The notes under the pieces were generated by a model. The model was not told the DNA's origin and searched no databases. It worked only from the letters and a program-made list of their open reading frames with translations. DNA of 24,275 nt from positions 1 to 24,275 of the IMG/VR virus record IMGVR_UViG_3300045107_000240. One strand, given 5' to 3'. This document shows, in pieces, positions 6,130 through 14,822 of this stretch. The stretch comes from a virus. Within the stretch, counting starts at the first letter, position 1; each line of letters starts with the position of its first letter. The translations under genes were made by a program, and so were the position numbers.

Positions 6130-7104
6130 ATGGCAAAGAGCCAAACCAAAACCGAAGCCTATCAAGAGATTACCGCCGCTATTCTCGACGAATTGCGCAA
6201 CGGCGCCCGCCCGTGGTCGCCGAAATGGGATGCAGGAACTGCCATCAACGCCGCCGATTCGCTGCGCGGCTTCCTGCGCCCGCTGCGCTCAACCGGCAAA
6301 CCGTATCGGGGTGCGAATGTGTTCTGGCTCATGCTGCGCGCCCGTCAAAAGGGCTACAAGAGCCGCTACTGGCTCACCTTCCGCCAAGCGCTGGCGGATA
6401 AGGGCAGTGTGCGCAAGGGCGAAAAAGGGACGCCCGTCAGCTTCTGGAAATTCTCCAAGGTGCGCGACGCCAGCACGGGCGAAACGAAAACCGTTCCCTT
6501 CATGCGCGCCTACACCGTTTTCAACGCCGAGCAATGCGACAACCTGCCGGAACGCTACATCGCCAACGCCGCGCCGAAGCTGCCGAGCGAATTCGAACGC
6601 TATGAAGCGGCGGAAGCTTTCGCCCGCGCAACCGGCGCGCACATCGGCGACAGCACAGACGGGCGCGCGTACTACATCCCCGCCTTTGACCAAGTGTGCA
6701 TGCCCGCGCGCGTATCGTTCAAAACGCCTTCTGCGTACTACGGAACACTGCTGCACGAGCTGACGCACTGGACGGGCCACGCGTCACGCCTTGATCGTTT
6801 CAAGCCCATGACTCGATTCGGCAGTGCAAACTACGCCTTCGAAGAACTAACCGCCGAACTGGGCGCTGCGTATCTCTGCGCCGATCTGGAAATACCGAAC
6901 CATGAGCGGGCGGACCACGCGAGCTATATTGCGTCCTGGATCAAGCTTTTCGAAGACCACCCGAAAGCTCTTTTCTCGGCCGCGGCGGCTGCCGAAAAGG
7001 CCGCCGCGTACCTGCACGGGGCGAGCGAAACCGAAGACGACGAAAGCGCAGCGGACGAATACTCCGCCGCGCTCGCCGCTCGAACGGGAGGGCCCGACCG
7101 ATGA
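6130..7104 (+). CDS. ardC: ArdC-like antirestriction protein
   Basis: 324 residues. The N-terminal ArdC/TraC-type ssDNA-binding domain (about 8-135) contains NGARPW, GKPYRGANVFWL and a WLTFRQAL...VRKGEKGTPVSFWK block, all characteristic. The C-terminal zincin-like metallopeptidase domain (about 150-300) has HELTHWTGH with His209, Glu210 and His213. A downstream YAFEELTAELGAAYL supplies the third metal ligand near 239-243. ArdC proteins of plasmids and phages bind single-stranded DNA and protect incoming DNA from restriction. The start ATG 6130 follows AGAGGATCGCAAACC. The frame is open upstream to 6055, but that includes the promoter. It is the first gene of the plus-strand cassette and overlaps the next gene by ATGA. 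Confidence 0.9.
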   Translation: MAKSQTKTEAYQEITAAILDELRNGARPWSPKWDAGTAINAADSLRGFLRPLRSTGKPYRGANVFWLMLRARQKGYKSRYWLTFRQALADKGSVRKGEKGTPVSFWKFSKVRDASTGETKTVPFMRAYTVFNAEQCDNLPERYIANAAPKLPSEFERYEAAEAFARATGAHIGDSTDGRAYYIPAFDQVCMPARVSFKTPSAYYGTLLHELTHWTGHASRLDRFKPMTRFGSANYAFEELTAELGAAYLCADLEIPNHERADHASYIASWIKLFEDHPKALFSAAAAAEKAAAYLHGASETEDDESAADEYSAALAARTGGPDR

Positions 7105-8588: not shown

Positions 8589-8674
8589 ACCCGCGCCACG
8601 CCGTCATCGTCGTTTCGCTGATCCTCTTCGCCGTTTACGCCTCGATCGCCTACTCGATCGCGCTCGCGCGTTGA
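8585..8674 (+). CDS. 29-residue single-span membrane peptide
   Basis: The frame MNPRHAVIVVSLILFAVYAS to IAYSIALAR has one predicted membrane helix (about residues 6-25) flanked by basic residues. Its ATG overlaps the preceding stop as ATGA, the same coupling used through the cassette, which is the main reason to believe it is translated. Its TGA lies inside the TTGACA of the next promoter (8671-8676). Function unknown. Confidence 0.55.
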   Translation: MNPRHAVIVVSLILFAVYASIAYSIALAR

Positions 8675-8700
8675 CAAGTACCCCGCTAATCGGCTATAGC
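8671..8700 (+). promoter_or_regulatory. promoter of the C4-like antisense RNA locus
   Basis: TTGACA at 8671-8676 is a perfect -35. TATAGC at 8695-8700 is a plausible -10 with an 18-base spacer. The spacer contains AGTACCCCGCTAA (8677-8689), shared exactly with 6061-6073. Transcription would start near 8706, at the foot of the first hairpin. Confidence 0.65.
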
Positions 8701-8872
8701 TTTACTTGGTGCTTCAAAACACCAAGACAGAGCGGTAGCCGCCCGCACGCGGCTATTTTTGTGCCCTGCGCTCATGCGCCGGGTGTGGCCGGATACAATA
8801 CCCGCAAGGGAAAGAAGGCCGCACGACTCTGTCCGTGTTTTGAGCACCCGGCACCAGCGCCGCTCGCTGGTG
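8701..8872 (+). ncRNA. C4-like antisense RNA / structured leader
   Basis: The region folds into successive stems: CTTGGTG/CACCAAG (8705-8711/8720-8726), the terminator stem at 8736-8755, a long stem GCCGGGTG/CACCCGGC (8778-8785/8845-8852) enclosing a GGCC/GGCC stem and a CCC-GCAA-GGG tetraloop (8801-8810), and CACCAGCG/CGCTGGTG (8852-8859/8865-8872). Two segments, CTCTGTC (8827-8833, b') and GTGTTTTGA (8835-8843, a'), are complementary in antiparallel order to TCAAAACAC (8714-8722, a1) and GACAGAG (8726-8732, b1). They also pair with CTCAAAA (8878-8884, a2) and GACAGA (8889-8894, b2), which flank the ribosome binding site of the downstream gene. This paired a/b design is the hallmark of the phage P1/P7 C4 antisense RNA. 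The match is made from architecture; no covariance search was run. Confidence 0.7.
8736..8760 (+). terminator. intrinsic terminator inside the C4-like leader
   Basis: TAGCCGC (8736-8742) and GCGGCTA (8749-8755) form a 7-bp stem around CCGCAC, followed by a run of T at 8756-8760. It lies only about 30-55 bases after the predicted transcription start, so it would yield a short two-hairpin RNA or act as an attenuator within the leader. Confidence 0.7.
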
Positions 8873-8904
8873 ATCCTCTCAAAAGGAAGACAGACCATGC
8901 CTAA
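8761..8904 (+). CDS. possible Icd-like leader reading frame overlapping the next gene
   Basis: A frame open from the TTG at 8671 runs through the antisense-RNA region to TAA 8902-8904, passing the ATG (8897) of the next gene in another frame. The part after the promoter could start at GTG 8761 (47 codons: CAHAPGVAGYNTRKGKKAAR and then DPLKRKTDHA). In P1 the icd frame overlaps ant in just this way, and C4 acts by blocking its translation. The peptide here is Lys/Arg/Pro-rich and has no good ribosome binding site. Similar leader peptides are often annotated in prophages, and they may only reflect conservation of the RNA. Confidence 0.35.
   Translation: MPCAHAPGVAGYNTRKGKKAARLCPCFEHPAPAPLAGDPLKRKTDHA
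8878..8894 (+). promoter_or_regulatory. antisense target (a2/b2) around the ribosome binding site
   Basis: CTCAAAA and GACAGA flank the AAGGAAG Shine-Dalgarno element in front of ATG 8897. They repeat the a1/b1 arrangement at 8714-8732 and are complementary to TTTTGAG (8838-8844) and TCTGTC (8828-8833). Pairing would hide the ribosome binding site. Confidence 0.65.
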
Positions 8905-9259
8905 GTCACTCCACATCGAAGCCACCGACCTTCCCGCCGATGACGACCCGCGCGTCGTCGCGTTGATGGACCGCATCCAACGCCTCATGCGTTCGGGCGG
9001 CGGAGACATTCTGTTCAACGGCGGGACGCGGATGACCGTCGTCCCCGCCCTACAGCCCGCGCCGAAGCCCAATACGAAACCGGAGCGCCGCCCCGCGCGG
9101 GCTGCCGTGCCGCCGTCTGCGCCTGCCCCGGAAGTCAGCGCGGGGCCGCTGGTCCTGCGGGAAGAGTATCGCGCGCTGCGCAACGTCTTCCGCCTCACGC
9201 TGGAATGCACCCCGGCGCAGCACGCCAAGCTGCGCGCATTCCTGACCGAACGGGCGTGA
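8897..9259 (+). CDS. hypothetical protein controlled by the C4-like RNA
   Basis: 120 residues. ATG 8897 follows AAGGAAG at a suitable spacing; the frame is open to 8759, but that part is leader. The N-terminal 45 residues contain a helix (DDDPRVVALMDRIQRLMRSGGG). A Pro/Ala/Arg-rich linker runs from about 58 to 84, and a C-terminal helical module follows (LREEYRALRNVF; CTPAQHAKLRAFLTE). No family was recognised. In P1 and P7 the C4-regulated gene is an antirepressor, so an antirepressor-like or early regulatory role is possible here, but nothing in the protein itself shows it. It is followed by a strong terminator. Confidence 0.7.
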   Translation: MPKSLHIEATDLPADDDPRVVALMDRIQRLMRSGGGDILFNGGTRMTVVPALQPAPKPNTKPERRPARAAVPPSAPAPEVSAGPLVLREEYRALRNVFRLTLECTPAQHAKLRAFLTERA

Positions 9260-9350: not shown

Positions 9351-9388
9351 ACCGCCCTAAGGCACGTCCTTAGGGCGGTATTATTTTT
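9351..9388 (+). terminator. strong intrinsic terminator closing the plus-strand cassette
   Basis: ACCGCCCTAAGG (9351-9362) and CCTTAGGGCGGT (9368-9379) form a perfect 12-bp stem with a 5-base loop, followed by TATTATTTTT. The stop codon of the convergent minus-strand gene lies inside the stem. Confidence 0.92.
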
Positions 9389-12932: not shown

Positions 12933-13631
12933 CTAAAGCAGTGTTTCCGGTTTCCAAGGCTCACGGGGCGGCGGTTCGGTCGTGACGCGCGGGCGGGGCG
13001 ACGCGAAACCAACCCACTTCGCGGTATCCGGCGGCAAGGACGGTTCGCTGACGACGGGAAAGCCGACGAGCTCGTCGACGACGATTGAATTCGGGTTGCG
13101 ACCGGCCAGCTGATCGCGCGAATAGATGTCGCGCACGACGTCTTCGTCGCTTTTGACGCCGAGCTCACGCAGCAGCTTCCTTACCCATCGCGGTTCGCGC
13201 ATCGGCTCGCCGATCATCGCTTTGACGGTCAGCGATTCGACGACGGTCACGAAATCGCCCCGCCCGTGCGAGCGCAGGAATTCGATGACCGGAAGCGCGT
13301 CGTCCGGCAGGTTCAGGGTCTTGGGCATGGTGCGATCCTTTGTTGTCCACTTTCGTTGTTGAAAAGCGCAACAGGGCGGGCACACTACGTCACCCGCCCC
13401 ACCACGTTTCGCCGCGCCGGAATAGATTGTCTGGCACGCGTCTCCCTCTTTCTGGACGATCCAGAAGGCCAAGCGGGCGCGGTCGAAGGTCCATTGACCG
13501 AGCAGCTTAGCGGCACCGGGAATGAGGCCACGGGCTGCGGCGGCCTGCAAGGTTCGTTTGGAAAGCCCGGTCAAACGGCAAGCTTCCGAGACCTTTACGC
13601 GCTCGGGTATGCGCTCGGCCCATTTGCTCAC
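12933..13631 (-). CDS. excisionase/AlpA-like HTH protein fused in frame to an unknown domain
   Basis: 232 residues from GTG 13631, which overlaps the methyltransferase stop (GTGA). Residues 8-55 (PERVKVSEACRLTGLSKRTL then GLIPGAAKLLGQWTFDRARL) are a MerR/excisionase-type helix-turn-helix. CQTIYSGAAKRGGAG near 66-80 resembles the tail of phage HTH proteins that usually end at about 100 residues. Here the frame continues without a stop into a second module (MPKTLNLPDDALPVIEFLRS onward, residue 102 to the end) of unknown family. That module has its own ATG at 13328 with AAAGGATCGCACC in front. It may therefore be made both as a fusion and as a separate 131-residue protein. The stop precedes the primase start by about ten bases. 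Confidence 0.7.
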   Translation of the reverse strand: MSKWAERIPERVKVSEACRLTGLSKRTLQAAAARGLIPGAAKLLGQWTFDRARLAFWIVQKEGDACQTIYSGAAKRGGAGDVVCPPCCAFQQRKWTTKDRTMPKTLNLPDDALPVIEFLRSHGRGDFVTVVESLTVKAMIGEPMREPRWVRKLLRELGVKSDEDVVRDIYSRDQLAGRNPNSIVVDELVGFPVVSEPSLPPDTAKWVGFASPRPRVTTEPPPREPWKPETLL

Positions 13632-14602
13632 GCGCGCACCGCCTCGGCGTCAATCATGATTTCGCCGCCGCCGAGCGCGATCCACGCGGCTGCCGCCGCG
13701 AGCGGCACTTGCGCGTTGCCCAAGCCTTTGATGCGCTGTACCCGAGCGGAAACCCCATCCACCATTCCGCAAAGACCGGCGTCAGGCGGTGCCCAGTCGA
13801 ATGCACCAGTGTATCGCGCAGCGGCTTCGATCGCGTCTCTGTCTGCGCTTGATACCCCGCTTCGCTGTACGGCGATTTCCGATCGGTCGCGCAGAGTGTC
13901 GGCAAACCCCGCAACGCTGTTTTCAAACCCACCTGCTTCTTGCGGCCGTCCGGCGCTGCGCCCGTGATCGTCGTCCCCGGCGGCAGCGAGCGGCTGCCGG
14001 ACATCTCCGATGCGGTCAGCGTCGGCAATTTTCTCAACGCCGTCGCCACTCCATCGCCACTGTGCAGCGAAAGACCCGCGCGGTTGTAGTTGCCGTAAAC
14101 GGTCAGCGTCGGCAGCCAAACACCACCACCGTTTGCGGATGTGTCCGGCTCCGACATCAGCCGCGGCAAGGATTCCGTCGCGCCAGGCGTATCCGCGCGC
14201 CACCAGTTCGCCGATGACGACGTGGCGGCCTTTCGTGCGGATGTTCGGCGAGTTTTCGAGGAAGACGCAGGCAGGTCGAAGAGCGTCGATTGCGCGGATG
14301 ACTTCGCGCCAGAGGCCGCTGCGTTCGCCATCGATGCCTGCGCCTCGGCCTGCCGCAGAAATATCCTGGCAAGGGAAGCCCGCCGCGATGCAATCCACGC
14401 GCCCGGCCCATCGGCTGAAATCGACGGTACGCACGTCGGCGCAGACGACTTCGAGTCCGGGAAACCATCCATCTAAAGCGCGCTCCTGTAAAACCGTGCA
14501 GCAATATTCGTCCTGTTCGATCGCCGCGACCGGCGTGTGTCCGAGGATGAGATCGGCCAATAGGCCTCCGCCGATGCCCGCGAATAAATGCAGCGTGCGC
14601 AT
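13628..14602 (-). CDS. DNA (cytosine-5) methyltransferase
   Basis: 324 residues from ATG 14602, with GGGGAAG in front and one base between it and the previous stop. SAM-binding motif I LHLFAGIGG is at 4-12. The catalytic PCQ motif (FPCQDIS) has Cys78. ENSPNIR at 116-122 corresponds to the ENV motif. HIRKRWW at 154-160 is the motif VIII region, and GLGNAQVP at 293-300 is motif X. The target-recognition region (about 165-285) is short and contains repeated ADADR/FADTLRDR blocks. All catalytic elements are present, so it is expected to be active as a stand-alone Dcm-type enzyme. No cognate restriction gene is nearby, so self-protection of phage DNA is the likely role. Confidence 0.92.
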   Translation of the reverse strand: MRTLHLFAGIGGGLLADLILGHTPVAAIEQDEYCCTVLQERALDGWFPGLEVVCADVRTVDFSRWAGRVDCIAAGFPCQDISAAGRGAGIDGERSGLWREVIRAIDALRPACVFLENSPNIRTKGRHVVIGELVARGYAWRDGILAAADVGAGHIRKRWWCLAADADRLRQLQPRGSFAAQWRWSGDGVEKIADADRIGDVRQPLAAAGDDDHGRSAGRPQEAGGFENSVAGFADTLRDRSEIAVQRSGVSSADRDAIEAAARYTGAFDWAPPDAGLCGMVDGVSARVQRIKGLGNAQVPLAAAAAWIALGGGEIMIDAEAVRA

Positions 14603-14603
14603 G

Positions 14604-14822
14604 TCACTTCCCCGCCTCCTTCGCCTGCCACTCGCCGCACCAACCGTCGGCATGCACGCGCGGCCACACGGTCCACGCGGGGCTCATCATTCCGCCGGTC
14701 GGTATCGGCGCGCGGCGTCGGCATTTGTATCGCGGGCCGCCCTGCTGCTCCGTGCCTTGGTCTTCGTAGTAGTACTCGATAGGCCACGACGAATAGCGGC
14801 AGTTTTTGCATGTCTCGCTCAT
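14604..14822 (-). CDS. small Cys-rich, zinc-ribbon-like protein
   Basis: 72 residues from ATG 14822, overlapping the upstream stop (ATGA). CKNC near residue 5, KCRRRAP near 33 and a C-terminal WP-V...WCGEW block form a four-Cys arrangement seen in many small phage proteins of unknown function. Metal binding is likely from the spacing. It precedes the methyltransferase by one base. Confidence 0.7.
   Translation of the reverse strand: MSETCKNCRYSSWPIEYYYEDQGTEQQGGPRYKCRRRAPIPTGGMMSPAWTVWPRVHADGWCGEWQAKEAGK

Follow-up and report, generated by a model that had tools for sequence, protein, structure and literature searches.

The C4 antisense RNA of phages P1 and P7 (RF01695) and its leader, c4-a1b1 (RF03163), constitute clan CL00128 of Rfam, and the P1 RNA is released from a precursor by RNase P. 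In the SymE-SymR system of Escherichia coli, SymR lies on the strand opposite symE. The sRNA-Xcc1 family (RF02221) belongs to no Rfam clan. Its Xanthomonas campestris member is an 88-nt RNA mapped by RACE (PMC2996969). In the literature searched, sRNA-Xcc1 is discussed as a trans-acting virulence RNA, and even as a cross-kingdom effector, with no verified target. A 2025 paper places sRNA-Xcc1 upstream of symE and proposes that the mechanism of regulation is divergent (PMC12444791). In Gifsy-1, a short terminated RNA, IsrK (RF01394), activates translation of its own read-through mRNA (PMC4825925).

We analyzed a window comprising the whole 24,275-nt stretch of IMG/VR record IMGVR_UViG_3300045107_000240. 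It contains a locus that is very probably a self-contained antisense unit of the C4 type, built on an sRNA-Xcc1 RNA, which would combine leader termination and read-through, excision of the sRNA, a block of the ribosome-binding site (RBS) of the gene ORF120, pairing with the leader, and a role in lysogeny. The locus is organized as follows:

8671–8700, plus strand: promoter-like site with −35 TTGACA (8671–8676), an 18-nt spacer and −10 TATAGC (8695–8700), read from the sequence
8706–8725, plus strand: leader hairpin TTGGTG/CACCAA with the target of the linker element in its loop (folding, −6.5 kcal/mol for 8706–8735)
8714–8722, plus strand: leader target of the linker element, TCAAAACAC (9 bp of complementarity)
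8726–8732, plus strand: leader target of the loop element, GACAGAG, followed by a conserved CGG (7 bp of complementarity)
8736–8760, plus strand: intrinsic-terminator-like hairpin TAGCCGC/GCGGCTA with T5, between the leader targets and the sRNA (leader model R1)
8778–8852, plus strand: sRNA-Xcc1 family RNA (Rfam match 8778–8860), with a closing helix (8778–8786/8844–8852) that encloses two hairpins
8822–8837, plus strand: sRNA hairpin 3 (CACG/CGTG) with CTCTGTC (8827–8833) in its loop (Rfam alignment; folding)
8838–8844, plus strand: single-stranded linker element TTTTGAG (Rfam alignment)
8852–8872, plus strand: 8-bp hairpin CACCAGCG/CGCTGGTG between the sRNA and the RBS (folding)
8878–8884, plus strand: RBS-side target of the linker element, CTCAAAA (7 bp of complementarity)
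8884–8888, plus strand: Shine-Dalgarno AGGAA between both RBS-side targets; position 8884 is shared with the 3′ end of CTCAAAA (sequence)
8889–8894, plus strand: RBS-side target of the loop element, GACAGA (6 bp of complementarity)
8897–9259, plus strand: controlled gene ORF120, an orphan of 120 aa with its ATG at 8897 (open reading frame)
9351–9388, plus strand: strong terminator closing the unit, a 12-bp stem (9351–9379) followed by a T run (terminator scan)

The RNA at 8778–8860 matches RF02221 with 63.6 bits (E 1.4e-9; gathering threshold 53) over model positions 1–87 of 87. Folding of 8778–8852 yields a minimum free energy of −31.6 kcal/mol and the same topology as the Rfam model. The loop element corresponds to the third-hairpin loop of the model, and the linker element to the unpaired stretch before the closing helix. 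A preliminary description of the DNA had proposed a covariance search with the C4 model as a check. This check failed: neither the C4 model nor the c4-a1b1 leader model gave a match up to E 10 (for C4, in 8600–8950), and isrK reached 12.1 and 11.2 bits in the window, noise level for a family that needs 50. Membership of these three families was rejected by the model thresholds; P1 C4 itself, used as a positive control, scores 68.8 bits with the C4 model. The window RNA is thus an RF02221 member, outside the C4 family, that probably works like C4.

The pairing elements were located where the preliminary description had placed them, namely CTCTGTC and GTGTTTTGA (8835–8843) in the sRNA, the latter taking in the 3′ side of hairpin 3, with their copies in the leader and around the RBS. 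The loop and linker elements form 7 + 9 bp with the leader and 6 + 7 bp with the RBS, antiparallel and in the right order. When the flanks were shuffled with dinucleotides preserved, the RBS pair was recovered in 67 of 20,000 shuffles, the leader pair in 1 of 20,000, and both in 0 of 20,000. The claimed consensus promoter holds for its perfect −35 element only; the −10 matches at 4 of 6 positions, and the site was missed by a consensus scan because of this weakness. The intrinsic terminator in front of the sRNA also went unreported by the consensus scan, but it comprises 7 bp followed by T5 and lies within the match to our leader model. Predicted helices in the unit are the leader hairpin, the terminator, the three sRNA helices and the hairpin at 8852–8872. 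The unit closes at the strong terminator, and therefore no second gene seems to be served. An antirestriction gene, said to adjoin the locus, is a neighbor only in a loose sense: this ArdC-type protein (ArdcN + MPTase-PolyVal; 6130–7104) heads the plus-strand cassette about 1.6 kb upstream, with several open reading frames between. The phage also has a C5 cytosine DNA methyltransferase gene, at 13628–14653 of the minus strand.

To extend the analysis to the family, sRNA-Xcc1 loci were gathered from viral and genome contigs by the exact core motif, and 129 that differ in RNA or target were kept; because of this selection, the sample is skewed to typical members. Every locus was scored against its own target and against the targets of all other loci. 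The summed score for own RBS regions was 3951, compared with a maximum of 2906 in 2000 permutations, and that for own leaders was 4415.5, compared with a maximum of 3763.5 in 2000 permutations. The own target ranked best in 57 of the 129 loci and within the top 5% in 102. A simpler measure, the presence of Watson-Crick words of at least 6, also separates own from swapped targets for loop and RBS (77% versus 5.6%), loop and leader (84% versus 12.9%), linker and RBS (64% versus 13.8%), and linker and leader (84% versus 25.4%). Swapped scores are raised by related sequences, so the comparison is conservative. The loci contain 114 distinct hairpin-3 loop sequences, and loop and linker covary with leader and RBS in the family. 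Two loci that are 95.5% identical (L020 and L021) illustrate this behavior: at all three sites, the loop and its targets in leader and RBS region, CCATGG gives way to another word. In 23% of the 129 loci the loop-RBS word of 6 is absent; some cases reflect wrong start-codon choices and others, in Xanthomonas, true absence. An [AG]CC triplet next to the closing helix is shared by 102 of the 129 loci, a raw count given without a chance level. Three sRNA-Xcc1 units (L145, L149 and L198; Cystobacterineae metagenome-assembled genome, Th196P3bin117) occur outside Pseudomonadota, before short or unresolved open reading frames, with RBS pairing intact in L145 and L149.

In most loci the RNA matches both its own leader and the RBS of the gene that follows, and the sRNA-Xcc1 family therefore probably acts as an antisense switch of the classic P1 C4 kind. 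The bipartite logic put forward in the preliminary description, with elements facing the RBS and a second target copy in the leader, is strongly supported by the 129-locus comparison.

A leader model, R1, was made from 36 other loci with the window excluded. R1 matches the window leader at 8708–8764 with 37.1 bits (E 1.3e-8), and a hairpin equivalent to that of the window leader is present in most of the loci compared. The model also matches the P1 leader, weakly (E 0.008), which hints at, without proving, a common descent of the sRNA-Xcc1 and C4 systems. Within the window, the leader duplex has a predicted energy of −27.7 kcal/mol versus −16.0 kcal/mol for the RBS duplex; in the predicted folds, the full transcript pairs the leader to the sRNA, and a leaderless transcript pairs the sRNA to the RBS. 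Such a global fold switch was rejected as a general feature of the 129 loci, in whose minimum-free-energy folds the RBS is similarly accessible with the leader (0.40) and without it (0.46). The leader duplex is the stronger one in 108 of 129 loci, a count confounded by the longer leader stretch searched. A GCGG/CCGC antiterminator switch was likewise rejected: the GCGG (or CGG) that follows the leader target stays constant while the terminator stem changes, and this lack of covariation disfavors a simple antiterminator. The role of the leader may be attenuation, decoy, or both.

A family scan of 118 downstream proteins revealed Bro-N (34), KilA-N (16), P22_AR_N (12), Rha (10) and AntA (7) domains, multiple matches per protein being possible, and SymE in one. 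In annotated records, the sRNA-Xcc1 RNA lies directly before ant in Aaphi23 and in Rac-SA53, before an antirepressor of Bordetella phage vB_BaM-IFTN1 and, in a prophage of E. coli, before an ORF6N gene. All four show the pairing; that of vB_BaM-IFTN1 relies on words that are shorter or more distant. The controlled genes thus appear to be antirepressors mostly and symE sometimes. ORF120 looks coding, with codon-position GC of 0.74/0.53/0.82, the same pattern as the other genes of the phage. As the preliminary description had held, it belongs to no known family: Pfam, PHROGs, NCBIfam and a tblastn search of phages and plasmids gave no match, and its sole relative is in a near-identical contig. 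A single-sequence structure model (pLDDT 54) was too poor for a structure search. Close DNA relatives of the locus were limited to a short match in vB_BaM-IFTN1 and one in a Methylomagnum plasmid. Because the RNAs of most relatives control antirepressors, our guess for ORF120 is a short-lived takeover or antirepressor-type function.

All 31 Xanthomonas genomes sampled carry sRNA-Xcc1, in 1–13 copies each, and symE is present in 30 of them. A copy lies at most about 700 nt upstream of symE, on the same strand, for 4 of 4 symE matches in one genome (G001) and 6 of 7 in another (G002). Loop and linker match the RBS region in one Xanthomonas symE unit (L185), as judged by eye, and both match well in a symE unit of Thiosymbion (L177). 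Most copies from Xanthomonas lack a loop or linker match at the RBS of the following gene. The loop still pairs with the leader through at least 6 pairs in 22 of 22 loci, and the loop-leader covariation (22 loci, 15 distinct loops) gives a trace of 170 compared with a maximum of 124 in 5000 permutations. Since loop and linker covary with the leader though the RBS match is mostly gone, leader pairing is selected on its own, pointing to control at the level of the leader in these copies. Among the Xanthomonas genomes (L185–L234), the X. prunicola copies examined differ in their loops, as if mutually insulated.

For the phage unit, we infer the following mechanism from the anatomy and the covariation. 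A single promoter would produce one transcript that contains the leader, with the targets and then the terminator, the sRNA and ORF120. The leader terminator would stop part of the transcription, and read-through would yield the sRNA, which would be cut out of the transcript and would present two antisense elements, the first in a hairpin loop and the second in a single-stranded linker. By pairing with the copies that flank the Shine-Dalgarno sequence, the sRNA would block translation of ORF120, as with C4. Its pairing with the leader of newly made transcripts would be stronger and would limit transcription of the unit, soak up the sRNA, or both. In a lysogen ORF120 would be off, and in a sRNA-free cell entered by the phage it would be on.

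Other arrangements of the same parts are conceivable. The sRNA might mainly target the leader of its own transcript, favoring termination before the sRNA and the gene by transcription attenuation, with RBS pairing secondary or absent. The Xanthomonas symE and XAC0095-like loci, in which 15 loops covary with the leader, 22 of 22 loci reach at least 6 pairs and the next RBS is unmatched, fit this arrangement, as does the conserved terminator directly 3′ of the targets. We regard it as unlikely for the window, however, given that phage loci keep the RBS copy about as strictly as the leader copy, and no conserved antiterminator structure reveals a route from pairing to termination. Similarly doubtful is an activation resembling that of Gifsy-1 IsrK, in which the short terminated leader would itself act as a regulator, titrating the sRNA element and turning translation on. 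The Rfam isrK model does match the P1 C4 leader (35 bits) and a site immediately upstream of C4 in a prophage of E. coli, and the leader duplex wins thermodynamically in the window; but sRNA-Xcc1 leaders lack isrK model matches, and no general gain in RBS accessibility emerges across the 129 folds.

Readings that dispense with local pairing fare much worse. An sRNA that regulates host or other phage genes in trans, with incidental local complementarity, would agree with the literature, which names sRNA-Xcc1 trans-acting with many predicted targets. It is nonetheless highly improbable, as a host-targeting loop would not vary from phage to phage in step with its own leader, and the local complementarity covaries over 114 loops and exceeds every permutation. 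That the region instead encodes protein, from a 77-aa TTG open reading frame (8671–8904) or a minus-strand gene, with a coincidental RNA signal, can practically be dismissed: both frames are open, but their codon-position GC values (0.57/0.61/0.56 and 0.54/0.69/0.73) are unlike those of the phage's genes, and the RF02221 match has an E of 1.4e-9. The C4-type unit set out above is the reading we retain.

What is probably new here is an RF02221 member that would work like C4, with cis targets defined from sequence. No cis target for sRNA-Xcc1 was found in the literature searched; Chen et al. (2011) lies outside that search and may hold an earlier notice. The covariation assigns each sRNA-Xcc1 copy a concrete cis target and predicts immunity-like specificity groups among phages. 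It also suggests how the hitherto unexplained sRNA-Xcc1/symE cassettes of Xanthomonas may work, the pairing being a candidate for the regulatory mechanism proposed in PMC12444791, and it provides a route by which genes in the antirepressor position can be found in unannotated phages, the orphan ORF120 being an example.

Compared with described systems, the window RNA shares with sRNA-Xcc1 a full-length covariance match, the same three helices and the same core, AUACAAUACCCG-AAGGG; it differs in that cis target pairs are defined, whereas the literature searched presents a trans-acting RNA linked to integrons and virulence, without a defined target. With C4 and c4-a1b1 it shares the order of promoter, leader targets, terminator, RNA, RBS targets and gene. 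As in P1 C4, a closing helix encloses two hairpins and the antisense elements occupy the second hairpin loop and the linker, complementary to leader and RBS. The P1 leader also contains the GCGG..CCGC..GCGGTATTTTTGTG segment within its weak R1 match. Antirepressor genes are the usual targets of C4 and of most sRNA-Xcc1 relatives. The two differ in core sequence, with no C4 model match up to E 10, and P1 C4 controls icd-ant, whereas the window unit would control an orphan gene without a family match. IsrK of Gifsy-1 likewise has a short terminated leader followed by a read-through mRNA with an antirepressor-like gene (PMC4825925), but isrK matches in the window reach 11–12 bits versus the 50 needed. 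In E. coli NZ_AP018796 (at about 1.18 Mb; L237:462-1608), an isrK-C4-rha unit and an sRNA-Xcc1-ORF6N unit stand in tandem in one prophage, which suggests that what Rfam files as isrK is the leader in units of the C4 type. SymE-SymR of E. coli resembles several sRNA-Xcc1 units, which control symE or lie ahead of it; SymR, however, is a cis-encoded antisense RNA of symE (PMC12444791), and sRNA-Xcc1 lies upstream on the same strand as the gene. On balance, we find it fairly probable that sRNA-Xcc1 as a whole, with its integron and Xanthomonas symE copies, represents a second lineage of self-targeting antisense switches of the C4 type, filed apart from C4 and using pairing codes specific to each lineage, in which Xanthomonas would have mostly lost the RBS target and would retain leader-only action in many parallel, mutually insulated switches per genome.
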